DNA of 64,000 nucleotides from Flavimarina sp. Hel_I_48 (lineage in GTDB: Bacteria; Bacteroidota; Bacteroidia; Flavobacteriales; Flavobacteriaceae). The stretch's first letter is position 1. Each line of letters begins with the position of its first letter. The notes beneath the pieces are model-generated. The model did not search any database, had not been told where the DNA came from, and saw only the letters and a list, made by a program, of their open reading frames with translations. Made by a program: the position numbers and the translations under genes. Of the stretch, positions 57,624-61,898 are shown one piece after another. The stretch covers positions 3,039,001 to 3,103,000 of the forward strand of contig NZ_JPOL01000002.1 of NCBI RefSeq assembly GCF_000733945.1. Direction: 5' to 3'.

Positions 57624-58361
57624 ATGGTAGCTAAAAGCCAAATAAAATTAATAACGAGCCTGGCTCAAAAAAAGTACCGGCAGCAGCACGGCTTGTTTGT
57701 GGTAGAAGGTATCAAAGGCATTCAGGAATTACTGCAATCCCGTTTTAAACTGCATTCATTATATGTTTTAGAGGAACATAAAACCGACTTTCCAGGCCAA
57801 AAAACCATCGAAATTGACCAAAAAACGCTTAAAAAAGTCAGTTTTTTAAAAAGTCCACAGAAGGCGCTTGCGGTATTTGAAATCCCAGAGGAAAGCAAAG
57901 CAGAACTTCCTGGGCAGGGGCTGCAACTTGTGCTTGACGACGTGCGCGACCCAGGGAACCTGGGCACGATCATACGGCTTTGTGACTGGTTTGGCATCAC
58001 GCATTTGATCTGCTCTGCCCAGACGGTAGATTGTTACAATCCCAAAGTTGTACAGGCCACAATGGGTTCGCTGGGACGTGTACACATAACGTATCGCGAT
58101 CTTACTATTTTCTTAGCAGAGCAAAAACTCCCCGTTTACGGCGCTTTTATGGACGGAACCGCCATTTATAAGGAAAAATTGCCCGAAAATGCCGTTTTAG
58201 TGCTGGGAAATGAAGGAAATGGAATTAGTACCGAAGTTGAAAAACACGTCCAGCACCGCATCAGTATACCGCAATTTGGAAGTCCTACTGCCGAAAGTTT
58301 AAACGTTGCCACCGCAGGGGCGATTTTAATAAATACGTTTAGGGAAAGGGGCGGGGTGTAG
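57624..58361 (+). CDS. TrmH/SpoU family RNA 2'-O-methyltransferase
   Basis: 245 residues. The N-terminal substrate-binding half (about 1-85) precedes the SPOUT knot domain: LVLDDVRDPGNLGTIIR, LGNEGNGIS, and the C-terminal S-L-N-V-A-T-A-G-A-I-L-I. Methylates a ribose in rRNA or tRNA; the site is not assignable. The region to its right (58362-58498) is A/T-rich and carries the upstream copy of the GTTATGT repeat. Confidence 0.9.
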   Translation: MVAKSQIKLITSLAQKKYRQQHGLFVVEGIKGIQELLQSRFKLHSLYVLEEHKTDFPGQKTIEIDQKTLKKVSFLKSPQKALAVFEIPEESKAELPGQGLQLVLDDVRDPGNLGTIIRLCDWFGITHLICSAQTVDCYNPKVVQATMGSLGRVHITYRDLTIFLAEQKLPVYGAFMDGTAIYKEKLPENAVLVLGNEGNGISTEVEKHVQHRISIPQFGSPTAESLNVATAGAILINTFRERGGV

Positions 58362-58448
58362 GTTTTAGATGATTGAATTTAATTGGTTGAAAATGATTAA
58401 ATTAGTCGGAGTATAACGGGATAGACGGAATGGTACGTTTTTACACAT

Positions 58449-58455
58449 GTTATGT
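58449..58455 (+). repeat. Upstream GTTATGT direct-repeat copy flanking the OLD nuclease gene
   Basis: GTTATGT here is repeated at 60299-60305, bracketing the OLD gene. It sits 44 bp before the OLD ATG. In an integron-type cassette this would be the recombination junction G/TT at the 5' side. A 7-mer alone can arise by chance. Confidence 0.45.
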
Positions 58456-58498
58456 CGAATAGAAGAAAACCAGATTTGTTAAATTAAGAGATGAAAGT

Positions 58499-60244
58499 AT
58501 GTTGATTGATTCTTTAGAACTTAAAAATGGCCATACAATTGAGCTTAGGTCTCTCAACCTCGTAATTGGTCCAAACAATTCTGGTAAAAGCTCATTTCTG
58601 AAGGATCTTCAGAACTTAACTGATCAAGGTTTGATTTTAGGTTCTACAAACCCATCTGGGTTAACTGAGGAGCAAATCAAAATATTCATGGAGAAAGCCA
58701 ACAACTTTTCTGTGCCTGCACCAAAAGGCGGATCATGGAATAGCGGCAGTTGGGAGGAGGCTCAGACACATGTGAAGCGAGAAATTAAATCCGTTAGCAA
58801 TACTTTATTAAAAAGAAAATGGACTCAAACTACTATGATTCTTGATGGTAAAACCAGATTGGCGATGGTAGACGACAAGGCATACCAAGGCATATCTTCT
58901 AAAGAAAAGCAGAATGTTTTTGAAACTCTTAGAAGAAATAGGAAGTTAAAAGCAGAACTTCAGAAGCATATGGAGGTTATACTACCAGGCAAGTACTTTG
59001 CTTTATGGAACCCTAAGCCTGCAGTTTTAAGAGCATACATTTGTAATATCGAACCAATTAATGATATTGAATATTTCGATTCACCAGATGCGGCCACTTT
59101 CTTTGAAGAAAATGCTATTCCACTTTCATCTTACAGCGATGGTATTAAAGCATACTTAGGTATATTAATAAATGTTATTGCTGATGGAAAATTGCAATTC
59201 TTAATAGACGAGCCTGAAGCTTTCCTCCACCCCAATCTTTGCTTCAAATTAGGTCAGACTCTATCAACCATTTCACTGGGTAAAGATAATATGTGCTTTT
59301 GTGCAACTCATTCTCCATACTTCTTGAAAGGTTGTCTTTCACTAACACCAAATGAAGTGAGCGTGACGAGATTTGAATTTGAAAAAGAAATAAGTAAAGC
59401 CAATACATTGGCCACTGAGGACTTGAAGGCTGTAATTCATGATCCATTATTGAACAATATTGGGGTAACGGAAGGCTTATTCCATTCTAGGGTAGTTGTG
59501 ACAGAAGGAGATTCCGATAGAGCATTCTACAACGAAATAAACAATCGGCTTGTCGCTTTTACTGATAAAGGAATTAGAGACTGCCTTTTTGTTAATGCTC
59601 AAAATAAGCAGACAATTGCAAAAGTTTTGGGTTTGTTTCGTAAAGTGTCAATTCCTTGTGCTGCTATTTCTGATATCGACACTTTTAAGGAGGGAGGTAC
59701 AAACTTCACAAATATTCTAAATTCTCTTTCAATTATTGGAGGGTCTGCTGAATCACTTTCAGTACTTCGTGAACGAGTAAATCAAAGTTTGAAGGCGGCA
59801 GCCAACAGCACGGGAATAGAAGAAACTACATTTGAAATATTATCCGAAAGATTATCTAACGCCAATTCTGAAGGAAAATCTGTCTCAGAATTTCTAGGGT
59901 CACTAAGAGGAATTACCAAGCCCCCAGATTACAAAAGACTTGGTGGGGCAAGTTTGCTTTCAGGTTCTGAAATATCAGACGCCAATAACCTAATTACTCA
60001 ATTAGCCAGTGCTGGTTGGTTTGTTATACCAAATGGAGAAGTAGAAAAGTGGCTGCTAAGCTTAGGCGTGGGTACTTCTAAACATGGTTGGCTACTACGA
60101 ATTTTTGAAAAAATGGGATCTGACCCAATGCTCCCAGAATATGTGAATCCACCAAATCCACTTGATGATGTATGGCTATTCACTTCAAAGATTAACGAAT
60201 GGTTTTTGAATCAAACGAATTTAAAAGAACATAAAACGACATAA
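58499..60244 (+). CDS. OLD-family ATPase/TOPRIM nuclease
   Basis: 581 residues. An SMC/RecF-like ATPase: Walker A G24-P-N-N-S-G-K-S-S, Walker B LIDEPEAF at D237-E238, then CATHSPYFLKG. The C-terminal TOPRIM domain has Glu336 in VTEGDSDRAFY and Asp392/Asp394 in ISDIDTFKEGG. This is the plan of OLD (overcoming lysogenization defect) nucleases that cut DNA and act in phage defence. No UvrD-like gajB partner is next to it, so it is a stand-alone (class 1-like) OLD rather than Gabija. The stop codon is inside the palindrome at 60239-60305, and the flanking GTTATGT repeats suggest it was acquired as a unit. Confidence 0.88.
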   Translation: MLIDSLELKNGHTIELRSLNLVIGPNNSGKSSFLKDLQNLTDQGLILGSTNPSGLTEEQIKIFMEKANNFSVPAPKGGSWNSGSWEEAQTHVKREIKSVSNTLLKRKWTQTTMILDGKTRLAMVDDKAYQGISSKEKQNVFETLRRNRKLKAELQKHMEVILPGKYFALWNPKPAVLRAYICNIEPINDIEYFDSPDAATFFEENAIPLSSYSDGIKAYLGILINVIADGKLQFLIDEPEAFLHPNLCFKLGQTLSTISLGKDNMCFCATHSPYFLKGCLSLTPNEVSVTRFEFEKEISKANTLATEDLKAVIHDPLLNNIGVTEGLFHSRVVVTEGDSDRAFYNEINNRLVAFTDKGIRDCLFVNAQNKQTIAKVLGLFRKVSIPCAAISDIDTFKEGGTNFTNILNSLSIIGGSAESLSVLRERVNQSLKAAANSTGIEETTFEILSERLSNANSEGKSVSEFLGSLRGITKPPDYKRLGGASLLSGSEISDANNLITQLASAGWFVIPNGEVEKWLLSLGVGTSKHGWLLRIFEKMGSDPMLPEYVNPPNPLDDVWLFTSKINEWFLNQTNLKEHKTT

Positions 60245-60305
60245 CACTATATATGAAATCATAGCACCCTGCGGGATGCTAAGCTTCATATACTTAAAGT
60301 TATGT
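60239..60305 (+). repeat. attC-like imperfect palindrome at the 3' end of the OLD gene
   Basis: ACATAAC (60239-60245) pairs with GTTATGT (60299-60305), 7 bp; TATATGAA (60250-60257) pairs with TTCATATA (60285-60292), 8 bp; TAGCA (60262-60266) pairs with TGCTA (60277-60281), and CCC with GGG, with an unpaired A at 60276 and a TGC loop. Outer box, spacer, inner box and a variable centre, 67 nt in all, with the gene's TAA inside the outer box, is the layout of integron attC sites. There is no T-run after it, so it is not a normal terminator. The outer boxes deviate from the RYYYAAC/GTTRRRY consensus, so identity as attC is inferred. Confidence 0.55.
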
Positions 60306-60336
60306 GAAAGCTGAAAAACACCCCTGAACTCAAAAA

Positions 60337-61257
60337 ATGAACAGTAATAAAATCACCATTTTGGAATTTCCAACGAACCTGGGGTTAAGAAAGAGAGATG
60401 CTGATACCGAACCCGGTGTAAAAAAACTTCCAGATTGGCTGAAAAAACACGGTTTTCACAAGCGGGTAAATGCTGAGCGAACCTTGCGTCTTGAACCGCC
60501 TGCATATGCTATGGATTTTGATAAAGTAACAGGGGTAAGAAACGCAGATAAAATCATTAACTACGCAATAGAACAAGCTAAGATCGTATCTGAACACTTA
60601 GAAGAGGATGTTTTTCAAATTAGCCTGGGAGGCGATTGTAGTATTTTAATAGGTACTGCTATCGCACTAAAACAGAAAGGAAATTATGGGCTGTTTTTTC
60701 TGGACGGGCATACGGACTTTATTACATCTGAAATTTCTCAAACCGGTGGTGTAGCCGGCATGGACCTGGCGATCGTTACTGGTAATGGCCATGATACCTT
60801 GACTAATATTACCGGTTTAGAGCCATATTTCGAAGAAAAGAATGTTTTTTGCGTGGGTAATAGGGAGTACGATACAGCCTATGTACGTCCCATTTTAGAA
60901 TCTGGTATAACTTATTTTGATTTAAAAAGGTTACAAGAAAATGGGTTTACAGAAACAGCAAAGCAATTTCTAGAAATGGTTGAGATAAACAAGTTGGATG
61001 GTTTTTTTATTCATCTTGACGTTGATGTATTAAACGATGAGATCATGCCGGCTGTTGATTGTAGAGCAAATGATGGACTCACGTTTGAAGCGTTTAAAGA
61101 ACTACTGAAACCTTTACTATTGAGCCCAAAAGCGGTTGGAATTGAAATCACCATTCTGGATCCCAATTTAGACGCCGATGGAACGTATACAAAACAGTTT
61201 ATAAAGCACTTCCTTGAATTAGTAGACTACGGAAAAGCAAAAACTGTTAATACATAG
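60337..61257 (+). CDS. Arginase/agmatinase (ureohydrolase) family protein with altered metal ligand
   Basis: 306 residues covering the whole ureohydrolase fold. Mn-site motifs: G-G-D-C-S where the family has G-G-D-H-S, L-D-G-H-T-D (usually D-A-H-x-D), and H-L-D-V-D-V. Thus five of six metal ligands are conserved and the first His is Cys. Substrate could be arginine, agmatine, formimidoylglutamate or another guanidino compound. The start is 31 bp after the downstream GTTATGT box, so its promoter region borders the putative cassette insertion. Confidence 0.82.
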   Translation: MNSNKITILEFPTNLGLRKRDADTEPGVKKLPDWLKKHGFHKRVNAERTLRLEPPAYAMDFDKVTGVRNADKIINYAIEQAKIVSEHLEEDVFQISLGGDCSILIGTAIALKQKGNYGLFFLDGHTDFITSEISQTGGVAGMDLAIVTGNGHDTLTNITGLEPYFEEKNVFCVGNREYDTAYVRPILESGITYFDLKRLQENGFTETAKQFLEMVEINKLDGFFIHLDVDVLNDEIMPAVDCRANDGLTFEAFKELLKPLLLSPKAVGIEITILDPNLDADGTYTKQFIKHFLELVDYGKAKTVNT

Positions 61258-61430
61258 ATCATGGTCTTATAAAAACAGAGGGAACAATCTCTTTTGCAAA
61301 TGATTAAGCCGGTGCAATATAAATTCTAGTTATCTCAAATGTATAATTTTCATGTCGCTACTATAAAAGTTCGGAATTTTATCTATCTTAGATTTATTAA
61401 ACCATAACGTGTTGGTTTACGATATATAAT

Positions 61431-61898
61431 ATGATGAAAAAAGAACTTTCGATTTTAATAGTGCTTGCTTTAATAATTTTGAGTTGTTCTCCTGACGACC
61501 ATGAATCAACCGTACAGCTTAACCAAAAAATCAAAGCTAAAACCTTTGAAATATCCGCCCCCTCAGGTTGGAAATTAGTAGAGGGAGAGGGAATTGATAC
61601 TTATATAGGTAGAATAGAAAATGACAGGTTAAGTATTTTGTTTGATCAAGGCTATCTTAGTTTTGGAACCCTGGCTAATATTGATGAAACTGAAGAGACA
61701 ACCTTTTTTCAACGCCTAGAAATAAATGGTGTTCCTGCCATAATACGTAAAGAAAATCAACCAATTTATGCAGCCGCCCACACTACATTATCGGTTTATC
61801 TTGATAATGGTACGAAACAAAATATGCTCTACGTTTTAGATTCAGAAGATGATGCATTTTTTATAACGCTGTTTAAGACCCATAAATTTCTCGATTAA
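61431..61898 (+). CDS. Small lipoprotein of unknown function
   Basis: 155 residues. Lipobox IILSC (Cys19), then a mixed beta-rich domain (FEISAPSGWKLVEGEGID) with no enzyme motif recognised. The S-G-W-K-L-V-E-G segment and later DDAFFITLFKTH give it the look of a PsbP/DUF1795-like fold, a weak resemblance only. Preceded by a 173-bp gap with nothing recognisable. Confidence 0.7.
   Translation: MMKKELSILIVLALIILSCSPDDHESTVQLNQKIKAKTFEISAPSGWKLVEGEGIDTYIGRIENDRLSILFDQGYLSFGTLANIDETEETTFFQRLEINGVPAIIRKENQPIYAAAHTTLSVYLDNGTKQNMLYVLDSEDDAFFITLFKTHKFLD

Follow-up and report, generated by a model that had tools for sequence, protein, structure and literature searches.

Integron integrases cut at G|TT, the classical integrase gene (intI) points away from its cassette array, and cassettes can insert at secondary sites (attG). 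Bacteroidota or Bacteroidetes/Chlorobi are named among integron hosts in the available parts of three papers (PMC9668308, PMC8618304, PMC2426708). The available part of another records, for Bacteroidetes, an integrase without cassettes from its authors' earlier study and one complete integron, that of Salinibacter ruber (PMC9024848). The attC models described in the accessible text of PMC8352920 cover 11 taxa, Bacteroidota not included. According to the available portion of a 2026 report, a gene of Riemerella anatipestifer integrates without homology by natural transformation, together with 140 bp on its 3' side whose fold resembles attC (PMC13148043). Integration there takes place beside a relE gene, and the authors, who in that portion report no integron, propose site-specific recombination (PMC13148043). 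A literature search by titles and abstract openings, with preprints and most subscription journals outside its scope, returned no flavobacterial integron of the kind described below; an earlier description of such integrons is possible.

The locus considered here lies in a window of 64,000 nucleotides from Flavimarina sp. Hel_I_48, and all window features are given on its forward strand. Judged from sequence comparison, its OLD-family gene is very likely the single gene of a cassette belonging to a capture system of integron type that Flavobacteriaceae share with other Bacteroidota. The gene (58499..60244) encodes 581 aa comprising the AAA ATPase and OLD-like TOPRIM domains expected of the OLD family. 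The Pfam matches AAA_21, AAA_15 and OLD-like_TOPRIM were all above cut-off, and the top PADLOC model was Old, with the GajA models scoring lower. A GajB helicase, as in Gabija, was sought beside the gene, and the neighbours were a trmH/SpoU-type rRNA methyltransferase gene on the left (57624..58361; Pfam SpoU_methylase) and an arginase-family gene on the right (60337..61257; Pfam Arginase). The trmH gene was matched in 12 of the 13 genomes of the genus, this one included, and in 9 of 11 same-genus genomes examined it directly adjoins one convergent methyltransferase-like gene. The arginase gene is accessory, without a match at E <= 1e-30 in any of 79 other genomes. The initial annotation had placed a cassette between trmH and the arginase gene; the cassette part is supported, and the arginase gene is not a conserved neighbour. 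The OLD gene is present in one copy in its own genome, and 118 of 118 other genomes searched gave no match to it (E <= 1e-40). The OLD region is accessory.

The gene is followed by an attC-like site (60239..60305), which coincides with the 67-nt imperfect palindrome that had been described at this position. The outer boxes (60239-60245 and 60299-60305) pair at 7/7 bases and the inner boxes (60250-60257 and 60285-60292; TATATGAA/TTCATATA) at 8/8, with spacers of 4 (left) and 6 (right) bases, and the centre consists of an unequal bulge and then an asymmetric TAGCA-CCC-TGC-GGG-A-TGCTA tip, as read by eye and from the fold. The box pairing and the fold agree with the attC-type layout of outer box, spacer, inner box and variable centre put forward in the initial annotation, and the left outer box, ACATAAC, does contain the gene's own TAA (60242-60244). 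The right outer box, GTTATGT, lies 54 bases past this stop, and the second GTTATGT of the proposed pair was located at 58449-58455; its distance to the ATG at 58499 is 43 bases rather than the 44 first given. The heptamer is not significant alone, occurring 6 times in the window on both strands versus 8.7 expected. The arrangement ACATAAC-N40-70-GTTATGT occurs at a single place in the whole 4.14-Mb genome. The site as a whole is significant: folded as DNA, one strand of the palindrome gave -11.8 kcal/mol (z = -4.1) and the other -11.7 kcal/mol (z = -4.2), with 1 of 200 shuffles equally good for each. An Rfam scan of 58300-60500 gave nothing relevant, only one sub-threshold match of the chance type (U4). 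The properties by which attC sites are recognized, namely AAC...GTT outer boxes, inner boxes, foldability, asymmetry and a position 3' of genes, were all found.

Relatives of the palindrome were matched by blastn in 28 of the 149 genomes of the family, its own included. Twenty aligned sites share one structure, in which both sides have changed at 12 of 24 pairs versus 6.9 in shuffles, although related sequences can exceed shuffles for this measure. None of 500 shuffles reached 12, and structures slid along the alignment gave at most 5. The outer helix was the least conserved (61% of cells), which is expected if the right outer box is part of the next cassette. The covariance model built from this alignment (R1) represents 20 of the 30 blastn loci, with L018, L025, L026 and L029 outside it and L010, L015, L021, L028, L033 and L035 omitted as incomplete or deviating. 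A heuristic palindrome scan, which was noisy and still gave 0-8 hits per locus after shuffling, was replaced by R1. R1 scored the window's site, a member of its training set, at 81.2 bits on the OLD strand versus 32.2 on the opposite strand. With a training set that includes this site and some of the sites counted afterwards, R1 sites were obtained in 60 of the 149 family genomes (E <= 0.01); across the phylum, 32 of 345 genomes had them, spread over eight families (E <= 0.001). Besides sites of about 67 nt, R1 picks up two longer classes, one of about 77 nt and one of about 130 nt. Two other OLD genes count against the cassette reading: behind the Pontibacter homologue (76%) stands a weak site (26.9 bits, E 2.3e-4) whose outer boxes are lost, as seen by eye, and no attC-like site was found after the Maribacter homologue (59%).

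One group of tyrosine recombinases, mostly of 372-386 residues, adjoins a divergent zinc-ribbon gene with a product of about 125 residues; three such products were tested, and no Pfam family was above cut-off. Zinc-ribbon matches of at least 114 bits defined 41 modules in 36 genomes among the matches listed; the integrase was paired by script in 26 of them, and in the others its strand was taken as opposite to that of the zinc-ribbon gene. Around these 41 listed modules, R1 (E <= 0.05) gave 95 rows corresponding to 92 distinct sites, and all 92 lie downstream of the module on the integrase strand; no site was antisense, and 237 kb of upstream sequence contained none. The 22 listed modules that have a site (22/41) all agree, for which a strand-and-position null gives about 4e-12. 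Counting against this association are the 19 of 41 listed modules without a site in the stretch examined, in some cases since the contig ends, and the weak co-occurrence of modules and sites (20 of 36 module genomes versus 40 of 113 others among the matches listed, p 0.05). Downstream of the modules of G080, G109, G108 and G034 come genes that mostly run one way, with sites between them. Absence of the palindrome after any other gene, which by the initial annotation would have refuted the cassette, was not borne out: the sites follow other genes in arrays adjoining an integrase. A similar module with a site 5 kb downstream was observed on a plasmid of Persicobacter, from another order.

Ten array genes chosen by eye as defence-like were compared to PADLOC models. 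In G034 and G108 the matches were to methylases and restriction-type enzymes, G108 also having one to a defence-type reverse transcriptase. In G109 there was a weak match to ZacB, and the schlafen-like gene of the Flavimarina genome matched pAgo in part; one G080 array gene had no match. The labels toxin-antitoxin, schlafen/AlbA, lipoprotein and IS91 (Persicobacter) used in this work are presumptive ones, given in part by eye. As a separate observation, a zinc-ribbon paralogue (about 100 bits), usually in one copy, is present in many family genomes and in other families of the class. Sites were also seen at L226, L227, L228 and L064 near shorter recombinases of 264-280 aa (by motif or by eye) without a zinc-ribbon gene, and the recombinase of L226 and L227 has its back to the genes, which is the arrangement of classical integrons.

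The crossover point was deduced from repeated cassettes in these relatives. In G080, 29 pairs of repeated blocks occur within 40 kb; 24/29 left ends and 20/29 right ends are no more than a few bases from G|TT (17/29 at both ends and 2/29 at neither), where chance is about 0.11 per border and 5 right ends are cut by the stretch. In G034, two copies of one cassette, the first right behind attI and the other behind an attC-like site, begin to differ exactly at the G (1/1 at both borders). For the tandem block of G109, the right border is at G|TT (1/1) and the left is not (0/1). Other borders in some of the repeated blocks count against the cassette reading. Exchange of cassettes at G|TT, as in integrons, was thus found in relatives and would apply to the OLD cassette by extension. 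Since the borders of the relatives' cassettes lie at G|TT, the body of the OLD cassette would extend over 1850 bp (58450..60299), its first base being the T that follows the first G and its last the G of the second G|TT.

An attI beside the integrase, another mark of an integron, was also present. A long inverted repeat ahead of G|TT (score >= 9.6) was found after 16 of the 26 paired integrases; among 600 random stretches matched in length, 2 had one. At a score of at least 8.2 the repeat was found after 18 of 26 integrases. The left junction of the OLD cassette (58411..58449) is attI-like, comprising a degenerate inverted repeat with the right half better kept, and its last base is the G that precedes the presumed crossover (G58449|T58450). 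Of 33 bases of this flank, 25 are identical to the attI of the same genome, and the crossover is in register. When 880 kb were scanned with the flank, the nine best rows were all attI (two own-genome attI, one from G021 and one from G032), several rows representing the same place twice. The raw score counts against this result, as it is borderline at 25 versus 21-24 for shuffled queries. A profile was built from 23 attI sites of other genomes, and by this profile the OLD flank ranked first of 127,916 window positions (42 columns) and second of 127,946 when 27 columns were used, an unrelated window position being higher. The 23 junctions were hand-chosen after inspection from 26 sites, with the own site, L185 and L208 excluded, the latter two because the junction pick looked wrong. 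The initial proposal of a single defence-type gene carried as an integron-type cassette is thus supported by the attC-like family in integrase-adjoining arrays and by the attI-like left junction.

To the right, the flank at 60300-60330, TTATGTGAAAGCTGAAAAAC, resembles the start of the first cassette in L053 as well as a stretch in L018. Because of these resemblances, the arginase gene may once have been the next cassette. The attC-like candidates after the arginase gene and after the small lipoprotein-like gene that follows it (61431..61898; assigned by eye, no Pfam hit) were weak ones only, a relaxed scan of 61251-61440 behind the arginase gene giving one. The lipoprotein-like gene weakly resembles a gene behind the module integrase of another genome (L052, G005; 36% over 47 aa, E 1.5e-5).

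The type of integrase was assessed by several comparisons. The cut-off of TIGR02249 (IntI) was exceeded in 0 of the 149 family genomes; many tyrosine recombinases of the family match both ends of the IntI model with the middle skipped. The top solved relative of the integrase was the Vibrio integron integrase 2a3v, and the alignment skips its residues 200-247. In all 15 zinc-ribbon-linked integrases that were measured, 95-96 residues separate the Arg I motif from HxLRH; the distance was 100-102 in two own-genome recombinases and 137 in IntI1, the only IntI measured. About 40 residues are hence missing relative to IntI1, a stretch which we take to be the IntI-specific region and the insert that marks classical integrons. 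Unlinked proteins likewise have no insert, and the missing insert is therefore not special to the linked integrases. The NCBI model "site-specific tyrosine recombinase/integron integrase" was passed by 3 of 4 linked integrases tested, which explains the names of annotated relatives. In the tree, 12 zinc-ribbon-linked proteins group together (100/99), and the G082/G034 pair and Persicobacter stand in an open fork with unlinked proteins, so that the linked proteins are not one clade. The possibility that the enzyme is an IS91-linked tyrosine recombinase was rejected; those of Bradyrhizobium (annotated) and Persicobacter (by eye) fall on long branches outside the fork of the linked proteins. Since the integrases have no insert of about 40 residues as in IntI1, the system is regarded as an integron variant with an integron-like way of working and is not filed under the IntI integrons.

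Within the Flavimarina genome, a module of this type was located at about 3.50 Mb on contig C2, where a zinc-ribbon gene, an integrase in pieces, an attI and same-strand genes with three R1 sites were found. The integrase pieces are in different frames, which may reflect assembly error. Some genes of this array appear toxin-antitoxin-like by eye, and a RelE-like gene (by eye) near the array start may be compared with the relE gene at the Riemerella integration. The absence of a nearby integrase, as originally stated, holds insofar as the nearest IntI-profile match listed is partial and about 91 kb away; it is qualified by this broken module of the right type, which lies about 404 kb from OLD. 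A second attI (L065 6975; G000:C2:2336975), at 2.34 Mb, is followed by the same first cassette as the integron, 96% over 521 bp, and heads further cassettes without an integrase, so that attI pieces seem to travel with cassettes. The OLD locus is the third such place in this genome. A palindrome of about 110 nt (GTATAACCGAAGTGGTGG...), which stands after a toxin-antitoxin-like pair, was seen just ahead of the second attI (L065 6861-6971 and L073 7541-7650).

It is proposed that an intact integrase of the zinc-ribbon-linked family took a circular OLD cassette as a folded single strand and recombined it at G|TT, with an attI-like site downstream of trmH as the target. The cassette would now probably be fixed because the genome's own integrase has decayed, and its product is predicted to act as a lone anti-phage OLD nuclease. 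The Riemerella integration, also in a flavobacterium, is independent support for capture of this kind (PMC13148043). The last move of the segment could instead have been the copying or transposition of a piece comprising attI and cassette, rather than integrase insertion at a pre-existing attI-like site, the cassette itself being real. This has a precedent in the integrase-less attI and first cassette at 2.34 Mb, and delta-attI-type cassettes are described for mobile integrons in the available part of PMC12901181. It is nonetheless considered somewhat unlikely, as the OLD flank is like the own attI at only the 25 of 33 bases given above, the 49 bp that separate trmH from the flank showed no integrase remnant by eye, and the genome holds a single OLD copy.

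Two further explanations concern the sites themselves. An intergenic palindrome with relatives in many genomes could be a MITE, a REP-type element or a terminator unrelated to any integrase, with GTTATGT as a target-site duplication. This was deemed very improbable, since strict bias of strand and position beside one type of integrase, length classes of about 67, 77 and 130 nt, cassette borders at G|TT well above chance and an attI-like left flank are all at odds with it. It is also improbable, if less so, that the sites are the substrate of a different recombinase (XerC/D or another integrase), with the zinc-ribbon-linked integrase no more than a frequent neighbour. The module is missing from 40 of 60 site-bearing genomes by the module matches listed, other recombinase genes lie near sites in some genomes, and the available text on Riemerella places no integron within 100 kb of the target (PMC13148043), all of which would fit this view. 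The attI-type repeat, which 16 to 18 of 26 linked integrases have right behind them, and the arrays that begin at this repeat on the same strand, argue for the linked integrase as the enzyme.

On sequence grounds, the OLD locus appears to be what this window shows of a wider capture system of the Bacteroidota, one whose integrase is unusual. More broadly, the Bacteroidota probably own a widespread integron class with an XerA/IntI-like integrase without the insert (placed firmly with neither IntI nor Xer by the tree), a zinc-ribbon partner and a palindromic attI. This class would be missed by IntI-keyed searches and would deliver defence genes such as OLD, also at attI-like sites far from an intact integrase, perhaps explaining the uptake in Riemerella. 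If the class escapes since its integrase is without the IntI insert, integrons have been undercounted in a large phylum and a reservoir of defence genes has gone unnoticed. The handling of folded attC hairpins by a tyrosine recombinase without the insert, the role of the conserved zinc-ribbon protein and the enzyme behind the attC-like integration in Riemerella are made testable.

Compared with known systems, the OLD protein shares its AAA and OLD-like TOPRIM domains with lone OLD nucleases and with GajA of Gabija, but differs from the latter in having no adjoining GajB-type helicase. Insertion at attG would likewise leave a lone cassette far from an integrase, whereas the left flank of OLD is attI-like. 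In the available part of PMC12901181, delta-attI-type cassettes resemble the second attI of this genome in that attI pieces accompany cassettes, but they belong to mobile resistance integrons. The Riemerella case also concerns a flavobacterium and a gene moved with an attC-like 3' stretch; it differs in that the available account gives no integron or enzyme, and the likeness is one of description (PMC13148043). With classical integrons, including sedentary chromosomal integrons and CALINs, the present system shares an integrase, an adjoining attI and mostly one-way arrays of small cassettes, together with attC-like AAC...GTT outer boxes, inner boxes, asymmetric tips, the G|TT crossover and defence-type cargo. 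It differs from them in an integrase that is without the IntI insert, mostly has about 100 extra N-terminal residues and points in the direction of the array, and in a divergent zinc-ribbon gene and an attI with a long inverted repeat.
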